40,189 nt of DNA from an uncultured Croceitalea sp. (GTDB lineage: Bacteria > Bacteroidota > Bacteroidia > Flavobacteriales > Flavobacteriaceae): the NCBI GenBank assembly GCA_937959125.1, contig CALGQU010000087.1, forward strand, positions 1-40,189, written 5' to 3'. Positions 26,620 through 33,572 of the stretch are shown piece after piece (the first letter of the stretch is position 1; every line of letters starts with the position of its first letter). The notes beneath the pieces are model-generated. The model did not search any database, was not told the DNA's origin, and was given only the letters and a program-made list of their open reading frames with translations. The position numbers and the translations under genes were made by a program.

Positions 26620-26661
26620 AGCGACCTAATCCAGGGATTGTTGGCTTGGGTCCGCTTTTTT
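26618..26661 (+). terminator. Possible terminator spanning the convergent junction
   Basis: AAAGCG...CGCTTTTTT imperfect long hairpin, right arm inside the convergent amidase gene. Confidence 0.3.
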
Positions 26662-27651
26662 AAAATCCAATAAAATCCCTTCTGAAATCCATTTGGCCAG
26701 GGCCTGTCTGTTGTCCGGGTCCAAAATTCTACGTTGATCTTTTTTATTCTTGATGTTCCCCACCTCAATATACGCCATGGGCGGAAGTGTTTTCCGAATA
26801 AGATATAGGTTTCTGGGTCCAAACGTTCCTTGATATTCCCTATTGGGTTGGAACCGCTCGTATTTCTTGGTAAACGTATTTCGGATGCTTTCTGCCAAAC
26901 GTTTTCCATTGGCACTCTTTTCATGATAATAAAAAAAGACATCAATATTGGCACCCTTACTTCTACTGTCCACATGGGTAACGATCAGCCTTTGGTATTT
27001 GCTTACATTTTTTTTGTACAGCGTATTAATAGTATTTGTACGTTGCTTTAGACGGGCCACTTGCCCTAATGGAATAACTTTATTGGGGTAAGTTACCTCA
27101 TCCGTATCCAATTCCAGCACCCTTTCATCGCGTATGCCGTCGTTCTTGTCTTGTATGATCATATAAACTTCCGCACCGTGGGAAAGTAGTTCCCGCGCCA
27201 AACGTAACGTAATATCATAGGCATATTCATCTTCAGCGATCAGTTTACCTTTATAGGTTTCGGTAGCCCCTGGATCCGGTCCACCATGCCCAGAAACCAA
27301 ATAGTACACACTCCCTTTTAATGTGGTGCTTAAGGAGTCGATACGCGAAAAATCCTTGCCAAAAATAGACGTATCAAATGTTCCGAACACCTTGGCTTTG
27401 GTAACCATCGTAGTATCCGGCAATTTATAGGCGACCCCAACTTTTAATAATTCACCATCGGTCAATAAGTCCGTATTCTCCTTTATGAAGGCATTATAAT
27501 GCCTACTTGGGCTGTACCCATTGTTTCGCAATAGGGAATAGATTCCGTCCCCGGCAACTGCGGACACGGTTCTTAGGGAGTCTTGTGCAAGGGTTGGTAA
27601 TGAGACCAACATCACCAATACAAGTAAAAATTTAAAAGAAGTGTATTTCAC
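26626..27651 (-). CDS. N-acetylmuramoyl-L-alanine amidase (Amidase_3-like) with N-terminal LysM-like segment
   Basis: YLVSGHGGPDPGA, AEDEYAYDITLRLARELLSHGAEVYMI, RLIVTHVDSRSKG, AYIEVGNIKNKKD; GTG start; signal peptide. Confidence 0.82.
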   Translation of the reverse strand: MKYTSFKFLLVLVMLVSLPTLAQDSLRTVSAVAGDGIYSLLRNNGYSPSRHYNAFIKENTDLLTDGELLKVGVAYKLPDTTMVTKAKVFGTFDTSIFGKDFSRIDSLSTTLKGSVYYLVSGHGGPDPGATETYKGKLIAEDEYAYDITLRLARELLSHGAEVYMIIQDKNDGIRDERVLELDTDEVTYPNKVIPLGQVARLKQRTNTINTLYKKNVSKYQRLIVTHVDSRSKGANIDVFFYYHEKSANGKRLAESIRNTFTKKYERFQPNREYQGTFGPRNLYLIRKTLPPMAYIEVGNIKNKKDQRRILDPDNRQALAKWISEGILLDFKKADPSQQSLD

Positions 27652-27662
27652 AGGATCTACGA

Positions 27663-28646
27663 CTAGTCCTGCAAATTTAGTTCAGCATAATCATTTAATA
27701 CGCCATTCGCTATCAAATCCGTGAACAAGGCTTTATCAGATTTGATGACCAAGGTGTTCCTATCCTCGGGATTGCTTTTGGTGGTAGTTTCCAATTCGAT
27801 CAAGGTAATGGCCGGCAGCGAATTCTTGGCCAAATAAAGATTGTTTTTGTCCGTAAATATCTCCTTGTACCTTTTTACGGTTTTACGGGTAACACTTTTC
27901 TGTTGGAATACATTCTGGATATTATTTGCTATTCGCTTACCATCCTCGCTGGTATCATGGTGGTAAATGGATACATCACAATAATTATTGGAAATCCCTC
28001 CTTTTACCCTAGTTATTAAGAGCCTTTGGTATTTGCCTGAATTCTTAAGGTATTTTTTGTTGATAGTTTCCAAGTACTCTTGCATTTGACTAAGATTGGC
28101 CAGCGCACCTTCCGTGGTTTCCCCTTCTAAGTTTCCAGATTTTACGGTTTGCGCCTTGGTCTTACTTTCTATGACATAGACTTGGGCCCCATGAACGATC
28201 AATTCCTTGGCCAGCCTTTTATTGATTTCTTCGGTTACCCTATTGTTTGTTGGGGTTTGACCCATAAGGTCATTCCCAGAGATAAGATAAATAACGGCAT
28301 CCTTAAGTTTGTCACTTTTGTGGTCGATATAGGCTAGTTCTTCATCAAAAATGGAATTTTCCTCTTTCGGATCGTTCTGGACCTGAATCCCCGTTTTTTT
28401 TAAAGAATCTTCCCCCAAAGGAATCTTGTATTCCCTGCCAAGATGCAATTCACTACCGTTTCTTAGGTTCCCTTTATTAAGCTCTACAAATTCCTCATAG
28501 TATTTTACAGGGTTCAAGCCTTCTTTACGCAACATTGAAAAAATACCATCCCCTTGTTGGGCAATTGCAGTTATATAATTTGTTTGTGCTAGGAGCAAAA
28601 CGGGAAATAGCATCCAAAAAACACTAAAAATCTGTTTCATATTCAT
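27663..28646 (-). CDS. Amidase_3-like paralogue lacking the predicted zinc ligands (pseudo-amidase)
   Basis: Same layout as 26626-27651 (GDGIFSMLRKEGLNP..., YLISGNDLMG, KRLAKELIVHGAQVYVI, RLLITRVKGG). ORF track starts at 28682; ATG at 28646 or 28640 fits the signal peptide. Confidence 0.78.
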   Translation of the reverse strand: MNMKQIFSVFWMLFPVLLLAQTNYITAIAQQGDGIFSMLRKEGLNPVKYYEEFVELNKGNLRNGSELHLGREYKIPLGEDSLKKTGIQVQNDPKEENSIFDEELAYIDHKSDKLKDAVIYLISGNDLMGQTPTNNRVTEEINKRLAKELIVHGAQVYVIESKTKAQTVKSGNLEGETTEGALANLSQMQEYLETINKKYLKNSGKYQRLLITRVKGGISNNYCDVSIYHHDTSEDGKRIANNIQNVFQQKSVTRKTVKRYKEIFTDKNNLYLAKNSLPAITLIELETTTKSNPEDRNTLVIKSDKALFTDLIANGVLNDYAELNLQD

Positions 28647-28754
28647 AAGGTTTCGTGTGGGATACCCTGCAAATATGCACATTAATCGATGAAATGCAAA
28701 AAAAATCGTTAAAAAGTATTTGAGTTTTATTTCTCCAAATGGTCTTCGGTATCC

Positions 28755-30068
28755 CTAAAAGTATTGTCCTATGCCAAAAACCACCCCACGCGTTGCATCT
28801 TGTGTAACGCCAACACCGTAATCAATTCTAAAAATGGCATTGAATATCCTTTTGTGTATAAATCGAAGACCAACACCTGGGTATACCCTTAAATTTTGGG
28901 ATTGGCCAAAATCACCAAAATCACCGCCCGGATTACGCCAAGTACCTCCATCTATAAAGACGTTACTCTGTAAGACGAACCAGTCCTTATCCATTAACGT
29001 ATGACGGTATTCAGTATTCAATACTATAGCTGCGGTACCCCTGTCAATCGTATTGCCAACGCCCCTAATGTTTAGGTTATTATCCACGGCAAAAGGGGCA
29101 AAAGGTGTCTCAATATTGCTAGCAAGGCCTAATCGCAAGCGCGATGCCCAATTACCTCTAGGGCCAATCCTATGGTAATATGAAAAATCGTTAAAACCGA
29201 TCCAAAAATCAGGGAGGGCATCATTATTACTAATGACGTACTGCATATTGAGTACACTTTTAAACCCTTCTAGATAATGATAGTAGTACTTAATACCGTC
29301 ATAATTATAGATAAACTTAAATAGTAGTTTATCCACAACCAAATCTTGGGGTACGTTGGGGTCCGTAGCCCCAAAGAGGAAATCATAATCCTCGGTAAAG
29401 AAATTCAAACCCGCTTCTACTTGGTGTCGACTGCCAAAATTTAACAAACCCAACACTTCAATAGATTCGTTATTGTATCGATAATCCGCGGTACCATTAT
29501 CCAAAAAAACAGGCTCTTGCGTAGTAAGGTTTTGATAAGCCACGGATAGCCCAAAGGTTTTGGAAAACAGAAAAGGCGCTCTAAGGTTTGCTCCAAAGGA
29601 GCTAAAAACATCATACTGGAAAAACGCCCCCAAGGTCATGTTCCTACCCAAAAAATTGAACTCTTGCAGTCCTACCCTAAAGGCAAACTCATCATCATTG
29701 CTGGTAAAAATATTGGCAAAGGGAATAATGGTGAAGTTTTCTTCTACACCATATTTTATTTCATAGGAATCCTTGACATTGGTATCCCGTACTTCAAAAT
29801 ACGCATGGGCTATGGAAGGTAATCTTTTTAGGCGGGAAACGTCTTCCTCCATCTTTACGGAGTCCACGGCCATACCGGGTTGAACCCGTATTAACTTTAG
29901 AAGTGCGGCATCCTTGGTTTTTTTATTGCCTTCTACCACCACTTTGGAAACAATCTTTTGGGAGTAAATTGTACAAGAGAGCAACAATCCAACCAATAAA
30001 AATAAATTTCTAGGTATAGCCCCCACTTTTTTTTCCAAATATAGCCTAATACGGCCTACACCTGCCAT
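28755..30068 (-). CDS. Short Omp85/BamA-like outer-membrane protein
   Basis: One POTRA-like segment (VVVEGNKKTKDAALLKLIRVQPGM...MEEDVSRLKRLPSIAHAYFEV) then a beta-barrel with GVGLRFIHKRIFNAIFRIDYGVGV...GQYF C-terminus. Confidence 0.78.
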   Translation of the reverse strand: MAGVGRIRLYLEKKVGAIPRNLFLLVGLLLSCTIYSQKIVSKVVVEGNKKTKDAALLKLIRVQPGMAVDSVKMEEDVSRLKRLPSIAHAYFEVRDTNVKDSYEIKYGVEENFTIIPFANIFTSNDDEFAFRVGLQEFNFLGRNMTLGAFFQYDVFSSFGANLRAPFLFSKTFGLSVAYQNLTTQEPVFLDNGTADYRYNNESIEVLGLLNFGSRHQVEAGLNFFTEDYDFLFGATDPNVPQDLVVDKLLFKFIYNYDGIKYYYHYLEGFKSVLNMQYVISNNDALPDFWIGFNDFSYYHRIGPRGNWASRLRLGLASNIETPFAPFAVDNNLNIRGVGNTIDRGTAAIVLNTEYRHTLMDKDWFVLQSNVFIDGGTWRNPGGDFGDFGQSQNLRVYPGVGLRFIHKRIFNAIFRIDYGVGVTQDATRGVVFGIGQYF

Positions 30069-30095
30069 ATCCCTGCCCTTAATTTACCGCCCAAA

Positions 30096-30851
30096 TCATC
30101 TAACTTCTATGGTAAACGGCCGCTCTGCCAACAGATTGACCCAGTTATCCTCGCTAACGGCTAGCAAGGTAAAATTGTACTCCGTATTGTCTTGTAACGC
30201 TGGCGGGGGAACTACTTCCGTGATGTTGAGTACCACATTGTCCAAATTGTAATATTGGAACCTTCTTTCAAAGGTATAGGTGCCTGAAAATAAGTTGTCC
30301 GCGGTATCGGAGACGACGTGAAAATAGATAATGGAATCATCGAAGGTACCGTCTTCCCAACGAAAGGTCGGCATGATGCTGTTGGCATCCACATCTACGT
30401 TTTCATTTAAATATTCCGTGGGTTTTGTCAACTGTTTTAAACGTATGGGATTGGATAAATGCAACTGGCCTTCTTCTTCAAAACTTACGATAACCCATTG
30501 CTCTTGTTCCGGTGAAATTTCATACTTCAACAAAAAACCATTGAATACATCGACCAATTCTGCATTGCCTTGGGTATAGTTCGTAAAATCATTCTTATCC
30601 GCAGCAGCATCAGCTTGATAGAAACCAATATCCGTTGCCCCTTCCCTAGGGTATAAAAAGACACTCACTACGCTAGGGTCTTCATTACTGGCTGCACATG
30701 CGATGACATTGTCCAAAACTACTTCCCTACCGGCAACCACGGTGGCAAGGGTAGGTTCCAATTCATCCGATAGTGCATTCAATCTATCAAGATCCGAAGA
30801 ACAGGAAACCAAAAGAAGGACAATGCAGGGGACAAGGTAATTTCTGCACAT
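30096..30851 (-). CDS. Lipoprotein of unknown function
   Basis: MCRNYLVPCIVLLLVSCSS lipobox; beta-rich sequence. Confidence 0.75.
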   Translation of the reverse strand: MCRNYLVPCIVLLLVSCSSDLDRLNALSDELEPTLATVVAGREVVLDNVIACAASNEDPSVVSVFLYPREGATDIGFYQADAAADKNDFTNYTQGNAELVDVFNGFLLKYEISPEQEQWVIVSFEEEGQLHLSNPIRLKQLTKPTEYLNENVDVDANSIMPTFRWEDGTFDDSIIYFHVVSDTADNLFSGTYTFERRFQYYNLDNVVLNITEVVPPPALQDNTEYNFTLLAVSEDNWVNLLAERPFTIEVR

Positions 30852-30859
30852 AGCAGTAC

Positions 30860-31876
30860 TTAGTTTTTACCTAGTTGGTCGCCAAAAAAGTTTTTGATTA
30901 CAGTTTCTGCCGGTTTGTTTTGTGGTGTAAACCTGTTATTCTTCGCACCCCCGGAACGGTCGTGATGAATAAACCATTTCCAAATAAAGCCACCAGCAAA
31001 CCAATCTTCGTCCCAAAACTGCTCAAAAGTAACTTGGATAGCATCTGCTTGGGCCTTTAGGTTGACCTGCATTTGGTTGCGATCTACCAACCAAGGTTTT
31101 TTAGCGGTATAGTCCATACTACGATAGCCAAACTCCGTAAACAGTACAGGCCTGTTTTTTTCTTCTGATATGGTTTTAAGTTTTGCCTTCCATTTTTGCC
31201 ATCCTTGCCCCATTTGTTCTTTGGACGGTTTTTGCACTTCCGTTAACGGAAAATAGGCATCCACCCCTATAAAATCCAAATCTTGCCAGAAGGGCACCCT
31301 TGGATACTCGTCCCAATTAGCGGCATAGGTAAGTTTCCCTTTATACACCTTCCTTACTTGTGCGATCAACTCTTGCCAGTACAAAGGTCGGTTTTTTACA
31401 AAACCTTCCAATTCCGTACCTATGCAATATAACGGCACTTGGGTTTCTTGTGCCAGTTGGGCGTAGGTAAGGATAAAATCTGAATAGGTTTCTTCCAATT
31501 GTTTCCACCCGGTTTCAGAATCCATGACCATATTCCCAGTGAACTCGCCATGCCAAATCCATATTTGCGGCTTTAGCATGACCTTGATCCCATTTTTTTG
31601 AAGCAATTTGATGTACTGCTTGGCGCCTGCCCGGGTTTCACCAAACCACTGCCTATCCGTATTAAAAACAACCTTGGGTTCGTTAAGGCTGCGCATAAAA
31701 CCAAAAGGCATAATGGCCGTATAGTTGGCATTTACTTCTTTTACGGGATCTACATTTCTCTGGGTAATCTTGTCCCTGGAGCCTACAAAACTAAGCCCAT
31801 TTATTTTAGCATTATCCTGTCCTTTTCCGCAGGAAAACTGTAGTATACAGTATAAAAAAAGCCCCAATCTTTTCAT
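30860..31876 (-). CDS. GH113-like glycoside hydrolase lipoprotein
   Basis: MKRLGLFLYCILQFSCGKG signal; CIGTELEGFVKNRPLYWQELIAQVR, DFIGVDAYFPL, PVLFTEFGYRSMDY, GGFIWKWF. ORF track starts at 31897. Confidence 0.78.
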   Translation of the reverse strand: MKRLGLFLYCILQFSCGKGQDNAKINGLSFVGSRDKITQRNVDPVKEVNANYTAIMPFGFMRSLNEPKVVFNTDRQWFGETRAGAKQYIKLLQKNGIKVMLKPQIWIWHGEFTGNMVMDSETGWKQLEETYSDFILTYAQLAQETQVPLYCIGTELEGFVKNRPLYWQELIAQVRKVYKGKLTYAANWDEYPRVPFWQDLDFIGVDAYFPLTEVQKPSKEQMGQGWQKWKAKLKTISEEKNRPVLFTEFGYRSMDYTAKKPWLVDRNQMQVNLKAQADAIQVTFEQFWDEDWFAGGFIWKWFIHHDRSGGAKNNRFTPQNKPAETVIKNFFGDQLGKN

Positions 31877-31893
31877 AGTCGATAGATTGGGGC
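31854..31893 (-). terminator. Terminator hairpin plus T7 tract whose loop contains the GH113-like start codon
   Basis: Minus strand GCCCCAATCT-ATCGACTATGAAA-AGATTGGGGC-TTTTTTT; about 28 nt past the upstream stop. Confidence 0.75.
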
Positions 31894-31921
31894 CCAATTT
31901 AAATGTTTTCCAACAAGGGAA

Positions 31922-32824
31922 CTACAAAACCGCTCGTAATCCTATGTTAAAAGTTTCGCCTAAACCGGTATCCCTTCCCCTTACAAAATTGGTATAAAGG
32001 GCCTCTATGTTCAATTCCTTGGTCAGCTGGTACTTGACTCCGCCACCAAGTGCCGTGAAATTCTGGGAAAAGTTATTCCCAAGATCAATGAGCTCCGTAT
32101 GTTGTGCAAGCCCCAATACCGTAAATTTTGAGCTTGGAAAATAACTTACAAATAAGCCCGGGGTCAATCTTAAACTATTATTGGCAAAACTGCCGTCAAT
32201 AGTAACGCCATTGGCATTTCTTACAGCTTCATCACCAAAATTATATTCGGAGTTGACCTCAGCAAAAATCTGCCATGTTTTGCCAGGGAACGTATAGTCG
32301 TAGAAAAAACGGTTCTGCCATGTAAAGCCATCTTGATCCAAGAAAACACCATTATCATCTTGTTCTTGGCTAACCAACGGAATAGAAATCGAACTTAAAA
32401 TGGAAAAATTGGCCGCTTTTGCAAACGGAACAAATTTTATCGATGGTGCAATAGAAGTAAGTCCAGAAGTACTGCGGCGTTCCAATACCGTTGGGTTGGC
32501 GGGATCCAAAATAAAATCACGCCCGTTAGCCCTGTATTCCGTAATAATCCCAACATTGATTCTTTTTGATGGGGACACCCCAACAAAAGCCTCTAAAGTA
32601 GAAGTAAAAAAGTTCTGTCTGATTCCATCTTCACTATCAAAAGTACTTCTGGTTTGCGTATACAGATTGTTGAACAATTTAAGGTCCCATTGCCCGGGTC
32701 CTACCAATTTTGATGGGGTCAAGTTTTGGATGACACTACCACCATCATCGCTATCCTGGGAATATCCTGTTAGTACTGCGGTCGCAAACAAGGCCAATAT
32801 AAGTTGTGTTCTTTTAAGTTTCAT
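31922..32824 (-). CDS. Outer-membrane beta-barrel protein (transporter-like)
   Basis: Signal peptide; repeated beta-strand pattern; C-terminal LNIEALYTNFVRGRDTGLGETFNIGLRAVL. Confidence 0.75.
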   Translation of the reverse strand: MKLKRTQLILALFATAVLTGYSQDSDDGGSVIQNLTPSKLVGPGQWDLKLFNNLYTQTRSTFDSEDGIRQNFFTSTLEAFVGVSPSKRINVGIITEYRANGRDFILDPANPTVLERRSTSGLTSIAPSIKFVPFAKAANFSILSSISIPLVSQEQDDNGVFLDQDGFTWQNRFFYDYTFPGKTWQIFAEVNSEYNFGDEAVRNANGVTIDGSFANNSLRLTPGLFVSYFPSSKFTVLGLAQHTELIDLGNNFSQNFTALGGGVKYQLTKELNIEALYTNFVRGRDTGLGETFNIGLRAVL

Positions 32825-32849
32825 TGTTGTTCGTGTTGAGATTTAAAAA

Positions 32850-33572
32850 TTATTTTGTTTTGTTCAGTGTCCAATCATAAGCGTAATAGCTTACTTTGGC
32901 TTTGGCATCCAATTTCTCCTTACGGTATTGGTTGACATAATCAATTTGGGATTTGCCACCTTGGGTAAAATCGCCCTTATACCATTCGAACAATTGGGAT
33001 AGCTGGACTTTTTTTCCTTTCACCCTAATAAAGTTGGGATTGTTCAATGCTTTTACCGTTTGCTTTTCCAGCTGGGCGTCCAAAGTGTTTGGCATATAAG
33101 CGTTGCTGATAATTGGAGGGCACCCAAGTCCTGCACAAACCAACACAAAATGGAAACGTGCTTCTTTGGGAAAGTTAGCGCGCAACAATTTGTGCTCAAT
33201 ATCATTTAAAGTGATGTCCTTGCCACCAACGTTGTACGTGGTCTTATCAAAAAAGCCGGCCTTATCCAATGGGGATTTTATGGGGTAGTTATCAACGATT
33301 CCCTTTATTACGGATAGATTGTAGGCGTTGATCCAAAAGGCTTGGTATTTTTTAGCGTCCGCTTTAGAAACCGTAATTCCTTTTGCCAAACCCAAAAGGG
33401 CATTCAAGGATGTAGGGTCCTTTTTGATGGTTTGATAATCTACGCGACCTCCCCGCACATGCGCTGAAAAGAAAGCGTCCGCCTTTGTAAAAAATTCCGT
33501 TGCGTCCTGTGCCTGAACGGAGGAAAACAAAGTCCCAAGGACAAAGAATATTAGTACTAACGTATTTCTCAT
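32850..33572 (-). CDS. DUF547 domain-containing exported protein
   Basis: YQAFWINAYNLSVIKGIVDNYPIKSP, LNDIEHKLLRANFPKEARFHFVLVCAGLGCPPI, FEWYKGDF. Confidence 0.9.
   Translation of the reverse strand: MRNTLVLIFFVLGTLFSSVQAQDATEFFTKADAFFSAHVRGGRVDYQTIKKDPTSLNALLGLAKGITVSKADAKKYQAFWINAYNLSVIKGIVDNYPIKSPLDKAGFFDKTTYNVGGKDITLNDIEHKLLRANFPKEARFHFVLVCAGLGCPPIISNAYMPNTLDAQLEKQTVKALNNPNFIRVKGKKVQLSQLFEWYKGDFTQGGKSQIDYVNQYRKEKLDAKAKVSYYAYDWTLNKTK

Follow-up and report, generated by a model that had tools for sequence, protein, structure and literature searches.

A putatively secreted Amidase_3-fold pseudoenzyme is retained in Flavobacteriaceae that lack its catalytic sister

Results

A pseudoenzyme and an intact amidase in tandem

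The window is a 40,189-nt stretch of contig CALGQU010000087.1, from an uncultured Croceitalea sp. (assembly GCA_937959125.1). It encodes two adjoining proteins that we refer to as PSE and ACT (Table 1). The original prediction had placed two same-strand reading frames 11 nt apart, and this is what the locus contains: both genes lie on the minus strand, PSE upstream and ACT downstream. The proteins are homologous over their full length (31% identity over 328 residues, E = 1e-43), and by sequence PSE is a tandem paralogue of ACT. The start first assigned to PSE, at 28682, is too early. In an orthologue with 90% identity, NLMNMKQ is preceded by an in-frame TGA, and the -7 box of a conserved promoter, at 28677-28670, falls inside the start of the longer frame, so the start is the ATG at 28646 or 28640. 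All PSE sequences have a hydrophobic, signal-like N-terminal segment, a few with a Cys at the lipobox position, as judged by a hydropathy heuristic rather than SignalP. PSE is thus likely secreted, with the caveat that a signal segment common to all sequences is no proof of periplasmic location.

Table 1. Features of the PSE-ACT locus, in window coordinates
Feature	Coordinates	Strand	Basis
PSE, putatively secreted LysM-like + pseudo-Amidase_3 protein, 325-327 aa	27663..28646	minus	ORF, corrected start
ACT, LysM-like + Amidase_3 N-acetylmuramoyl-L-alanine amidase, predicted intact	26626..27651	minus	PF01520, Foldseek
LysM-like domain of PSE (AQQGDGIFSMLRK...REYKIP)	28413..28571	minus	hhalign, conservation
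Zinc ligand 1 position: His in ACT, Asn in PSE (SGN)	28272..28274	minus	alignment
Zinc ligand 2 position: Glu140 in ACT, Asn in PSE (TPTNNRVTEE region)	28245..28247	minus	alignment, CwlD 7rag
Zinc ligand 3 position: His in ACT, Arg in PSE (ITR)	28008..28010	minus	alignment
Catalytic Glu position: present in window PSE (LIELE), gone from most orthologues	27795..27797	minus	alignment
Candidate PSE promoter/operator: direct repeats, -33 box and -7-like box	28670..28720	minus	18 aligned loci
BamA-like outer-membrane protein (POTRA plus barrel)	28755..30068	minus	PF07244 E = 5e-7, TIGR03303 E = 1e-15

In the ancestral gene order suggested by synteny, the BamA-like gene is the upstream same-strand neighbor of PSE. 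It belongs to a conserved upstream block (28755-33572 in the window) that encodes a DUF547 protein, a 300-aa protein without a Pfam match, a GH113 glycosidase, a lipoprotein and the BamA-like protein, which has one POTRA. Many Flagellimonas lack the lipoprotein and BamA-like genes of this block.

PSE keeps the amidase fold

ACT matches the Amidase_3 family well above threshold (PF01520, E = 5.3e-22; 79 bits, cut-off 27). It resembles CwlD and LytH in sequence, and its Foldseek matches include AmiC2 (5emi, 9e-12), LytH, CwlD, CwlV, Ami1, AmiA and AmiB. With H122, E140, H226 and E296 all present, ACT is predicted to be an ordinary zinc-dependent Amidase_3 enzyme, like the canonical AmiC, CwlV and Rv3717 in zinc set, catalytic Glu and fold. 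PSE scores below the same cut-off (E = 0.0014, 19.2 bits), and only its second half is matched. The AlphaFold model of PSE (mean pLDDT 83, pTM 0.84) nevertheless finds Amidase_3 structures as its best Foldseek matches, namely CwlD (1.4e-6), Rv3717, LytH, CwlV and AmiB, at a probability of about 1.00. In the predicted structure, then, PSE keeps the Amidase_3 fold, as had been proposed for the upstream copy. A LytM domain was sought as well, and neither Pfam nor the structure matches listed gave an M23 match for PSE.

The N-terminal domain had been labeled LysM-like, and both profile alignment and model topology favor the label. When aligned with LysM repeats taken from this genome, the domain reaches an hhalign probability of 88% and a score of 30.1, against a maximum of 14.6 among 60 column shuffles, none of which did as well (0/60). 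The model has a strand-helix-helix-strand topology, with strands at residues 22-26 and 70-74 and helices at 33-39 and 44-54. The domain is under the Pfam LysM threshold, with no PSE match among the families listed, and 1/29 ACT proteins has a Pfam LysM match (E = 0.012).

The metal site is gone throughout the PSE family

We aligned 97 PSE and 85 ACT rows, which represent about 85 and 65 distinct sequences, since some genes appear in two rows. The H/E/H zinc set together with the catalytic Glu is kept in 85/85 ACT rows, while the zinc set is kept in 0/97 PSE rows. The proposal that the upstream copy had lost all three zinc ligands therefore extends to the whole family, and because the set is missing from every PSE row and present in every ACT row, the loss is neither chance nor a local artefact. 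When the window PSE is aligned with ACT and relatives, the three columns change from His to Asn, Glu to Asn and His to Arg. The second had been given as Glu to Arg; the residue is indeed lost, but the true ligand column lies two residues earlier. Within the ACT segment IA-E-DEYAYD, the first Glu (residue 140) is the ligand, and it lines up with the E of CwlD (7rag).

What took the place of the ligands varies among the 97 rows. Ligand 1 is most often N (47), then D (20), S (9), Q (7) and others, with H in two rows; ligand 2 is E in only 10; and ligand 3 is R in 69, N in 15, D in 6, Q in 4 and K in 3, and never H. The catalytic Glu column, described as preserved, is so in the window copy but not in the family, where T (49), E (18), D (15) and other residues occur and the Glu is replaced in 79/97 rows. 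The loop that follows ligand 1 in ACT (GGPDPGA...) and the DGIRD...DEV insert are absent or replaced in PSE, and thus the substrate groove has probably been dismantled along with the metal site. Relative to AmiC, CwlV and Rv3717, PSE is missing the entire ligand set as well as the substrate loops. We looked for PSE orthologues with the ligand set and for a substitute metal site among conserved residues, and found neither: across the PSE rows there is no conserved His/Asp/Glu/Cys set, and H227, D264 and D317 are the only residues of these types in the pseudo-amidase domain to reach or exceed 80% conservation.

A single duplication and loss of catalysis as the simplest history

In a tree of 150 proteins, a single branch with support of 100 separates PSE from ACT; this branch is long, and the tree, a quick one, cannot place the root. 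Since the split is one fully supported branch, the alignment and tree indicate that catalysis was lost once, in the PSE lineage, and several origins of ligand loss are rejected. Outgroup genomes (Robiginitalea, Eudoraea and two others) have a single ACT in the slot held here by the pair, after the GH113, lipoprotein and BamA-like genes and before convergent glycosyltransferase and purine phosphorylase genes. Because one ACT fills the same slot in these outgroups, the sequences are most simply explained if the gene was tandemly duplicated once and the upstream copy then lost catalysis. A phage origin of PSE was also considered and rejected, as PSE matches nothing in the phage collection searched and its chromosomal synteny is stable.

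PSE is retained without ACT

PSE is found in Croceitalea (8/8 genomes), Flagellimonas/Allomuricauda, Croceivirga and Maribacter-like genomes. Within one genus of 73 genomes, PSE is present in 71 and ACT in 33: 38 genomes have PSE only, 33 have both (including G512, where PSE is just a fragment at the edge of a contig), none has ACT only, and two, which are 71% and 92% complete, have neither. The two genes occur together in 12/12 genomes of another genus. For 33/33 genomes in which PSE has no ACT neighbor, a whole-genome search for ACT returns PSE only, although one of these (L065) is uncertain, as its contig ends there. Single-contig PSE-only genomes (e.g. G481, G497, G502, G503 and G505) and clean junctions, where the next frame follows at 5-87 nt or overlaps slightly, lead us to reject assembly gaps as the reason for the absence of ACT. 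PSE is retained independently of ACT.

On a tree of four neighboring genes, the presence of ACT changes 13 times, with at least 9 changes forced by well-supported branches; such counts by themselves cannot separate loss from gain. Where ACT is present it almost always occupies the same slot, and the junctions of PSE-only loci are clean, so the changes are most simply read as losses. Outside the Flagellimonas/Croceitalea/Maribacter group, ACT without PSE is common. It follows that PSE is not needed by all relatives, and that the asymmetry in favor of PSE is a property of this clade.

An AmiC-type Amidase_3 protein of ~420 aa is encoded in 40/40 genomes tested, with and without ACT. It is the sole intact Amidase_3 in 11/21 PSE-only genomes tested, so replacement of ACT by another amidase is not a general explanation. 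Six Flagellimonas-like genomes (G433, G452, G460, G547, G555 and G558) have 4-7 Amidase_3 matches, several of them short (~210-290 aa); their close relatives have one Amidase_3, and the extra copies are possibly prophage-borne. One locus (L033, JAAEZN010000004.1) is titled Algicola sp., which the taxonomy places in Pseudoalteromonadaceae, but the locus and its neighbors fall inside the Flagellimonas/Allomuricauda group, and the label looks wrong or is an old flavobacterial name.

Selection acts on PSE, most strongly on its LysM-like domain

An open PSE frame is seen in at least 90 species, PSE-only ones included, and in about 85 distinct sequences. Between close pairs, dN/dS is 0.085 where ACT is present and 0.080 where it is absent, the latter from 6 usable pairs. 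The first codon-model omegas had saturated tree lengths and were cross-checked with these close-pair NG86 values. As estimated from the sequences, PSE is under strong purifying selection (dN/dS about 0.08). It evolves faster than ACT, and the constraint is distributed differently in the two proteins. In PSE, the mean majority share is 0.73 in the LysM-like domain and 0.54 in the pseudo-amidase domain (dN/dS 0.05 and 0.09); in ACT this is reversed, with 0.63 in the LysM-like and 0.83 in the amidase domain (dN/dS 0.05 and 0.03). By these measures, constraint in PSE is shifted to the LysM-like domain. No other part of PSE is as constrained as this domain, which lends support to peptidoglycan binding as a plausible role, as originally suggested. 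Measured against neighbor genes, the amino-acid divergence of PSE between sister pairs has a median of 2.2 without ACT and 1.4 with ACT, with overlapping ranges. This somewhat higher divergence leaves room for mild relaxation or a change of role where ACT is gone.

A conserved promoter with a candidate operator

Upstream of PSE, we observe direct repeats, TACTTTTTAACGAT and TGCATTTCATCGAT, exactly 20 bp apart, the second of which overlaps a TTTG -33 box that is followed by a -7-like box, CATATTTG. Over 18 aligned loci (the window, L025-L029, L034, L037, L039, L042, L060, L065, L075, L079, L086, L093, L094 and L102), repeat identity at an offset of 20 averages 10.9 of 13, compared with 1.9-5.3 at other offsets from 8 to 44. 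Paired TGCATTTCATCGAT repeats are found in Croceitalea, Croceivirga and part of Flagellimonas. We take the promoter to be of the Bacteroidota type (TTTG, 17-23 nt, then a TAnnTTTG-like consensus), and the spacing and sequence of the candidate operator presumably recall sites of LytTR-type response regulators. At 41/55 PSE loci (e.g. L028, L044 and L058), a box [GA]CA[CT]CC occurs at a fixed distance of 4 nt after the -7 box, where 3.9 are expected from shuffled sequence.

In Croceivirga lutea (L102), ACT has been relocated upstream of the GH113 gene, and the operator remains with PSE. In many Flagellimonas, the ATG of ACT directly follows the PSE stop with zero gap, and this lack of a gap suggests translational coupling of the two genes. 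A large regulon under the same operator is rejected, as this genome contains one further perfect paired site. That site (L187:4984-5013; genome contig C172:12483-12512, minus strand) lies ~107 bp upstream of a DUF1800-DUF1501 operon, the DUF1501 protein of which has a weak match to a T9SS sorting tail. As a perfect paired repeat precedes both, the PSE operon and the DUF1800-DUF1501 operon may share a regulator.

Discussion

Relatives of this Croceitalea keep PSE under strong selection and often discard ACT, and PSE therefore probably has a cell-wall job of its own. The analysis supports the original idea of a pseudoenzyme that preserves the fold and is dedicated to a non-enzymatic role. We think it probable that PSE is a non-catalytic, peptidoglycan-bound adaptor whose role is independent of ACT. 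Under this model, a LysM-like + Amidase_3 enzyme would have been tandemly duplicated once, and the copy that became PSE would then have lost its zinc site and the surrounding substrate loops while keeping its fold. The LysM-like domain would hold PSE on peptidoglycan, and the dead amidase domain would serve as a docking or occupying module without catalysis. Where ACT is present, the two proteins would be made from one message and possibly cooperate; in ACT-less species, the likeliest partners of PSE would be the AmiC-type amidase or peptidoglycan itself. What the model says about secretion, binding to peptidoglycan, action as an adaptor and the choice of partner is inferred from sequence.

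The original prediction also proposed that PSE may regulate its neighbor, which it might do by forming a heterodimer with ACT or by competing with it for peptidoglycan. As a dedicated role this is unlikely, if the strongest of the alternatives. The genes are adjacent with short or zero spacing, PSE accompanies ACT in 33/33 ACT-bearing genomes of the 73-genome genus (counting the G512 fragment), and both are present in all 12 genomes of the other. There is also precedent for a dead paralogue as regulator in the trypanosomatid deoxyhypusine synthase prozyme (PMC3663545), which, like PSE, is a catalytically dead paralogue of an active enzyme. The prozyme activates its sister, however, and both are needed, whereas PSE outlives the loss of its sister. 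At least 38 genomes of one genus have PSE and no ACT, with the same dN/dS and a clean gene order, and many other genera have ACT without PSE. Regulation of ACT does not hold up as the main function when PSE is intact and constrained in dozens of ACT-less genomes, and would be at most an additional role where both genes exist, in what may be a secondary partnership.

A related possibility, to which we also give a low probability, is that PSE is an activator or brake of the AmiC-type amidase, acting as EnvC or ActH do despite its different fold. The AmiC-type enzyme is encoded in every genome tested, and in about half of the tested PSE-only genomes it is the sole intact Amidase_3. We see no gene linkage between it and PSE, however, and because none of the genomes tested lacks it, whether they have ACT or not, its co-occurrence with PSE is uninformative. 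Less probable again is that the old active site has been rebuilt into a new zinc-free binding or catalytic site. The prevalence of Arg at ligand 3 (69/97) and Thr at the catalytic Glu (49/97) might point that way, but those positions are occupied by different residues (N, D, Q, E) in the Croceitalea, Croceivirga and Maribacter branches, so that the family as a whole has no new site, and many conserved PSE residues are scaffold positions common to ACT. That PSE is a decaying pseudogene or an annotation artefact, as its missing catalytic site and faster evolution might suggest, has a negligible probability and is refuted by the many open frames, the low dN/dS and the conserved promoter.

The closest precedent for our favored reading of PSE as a peptidoglycan-bound adaptor is, by analogy, CwlM, a mycobacterial Amidase_3 homologue that regulates MurA. 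Zinc histidines of CwlM have degenerated to arginine, replacing its remaining ligands leaves growth unaffected so that its essential role is regulatory, and the protein is cytoplasmic, without a signal sequence, and phosphorylated by PknB (Boutte et al. 2016, PMC4946905). Both proteins combine an Amidase_3 fold and degenerate zinc histidines with a peptidoglycan-binding region, putative in PSE. They differ in that CwlM is a cytoplasmic protein of Actinobacteria and PSE a protein of Flavobacteriaceae with a signal-like N-terminus, and in that PSE lacks the Glu ligand too and is encoded in tandem with its active sister. Since its own ACT is its nearest relative, PSE has an origin independent of CwlM.

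The original comparison with EnvC and NlpD stands insofar as these too are degenerate hydrolases that act without catalysis. It is otherwise loose, because EnvC and NlpD have a LytM (M23) fold; they regulate enzymes of another family (AmiA/B/C), whereas PSE is a paralogue of the adjoining enzyme and persists without it. Among the Amidase_3 enzymes near ACT in structure, LytH and CwlD are controlled by partner proteins, ActH and GerS (7tj4, 7rag), but these partners, unlike PSE, are not amidase homologues. We found no described flavobacterial pseudo-amidase in the open-access literature, which leaves out most subscription journals.

To our knowledge, the regulation of peptidoglycan hydrolases in Bacteroidota is poorly understood, and PSE offers a widespread and experimentally accessible entry point, with type strains of Flagellimonas and Croceitalea. 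In PSE, nature has separated a non-catalytic role of the amidase fold from catalysis, and species with and without ACT provide a built-in control. The broader proposal, which we hold to be evenly balanced between true and false, is that a secreted Amidase_3 pseudoenzyme has taken over from its catalytic sister as the member of the pair that is conserved. PSE would then be a non-catalytic envelope factor, controlled by a direct-repeat operator of its own and near-core in one genus, with ACT being lost again and again. If so, PSE would mark the second time, independently of CwlM, that an amidase fold has come to serve as a regulator or adaptor, and would be the first such protein we know of to act outside the cytoplasm. 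In an enzyme/pseudoenzyme pair, it can be the dead protein that is conserved, and automatic annotation based on fold would assign it the wrong activity.
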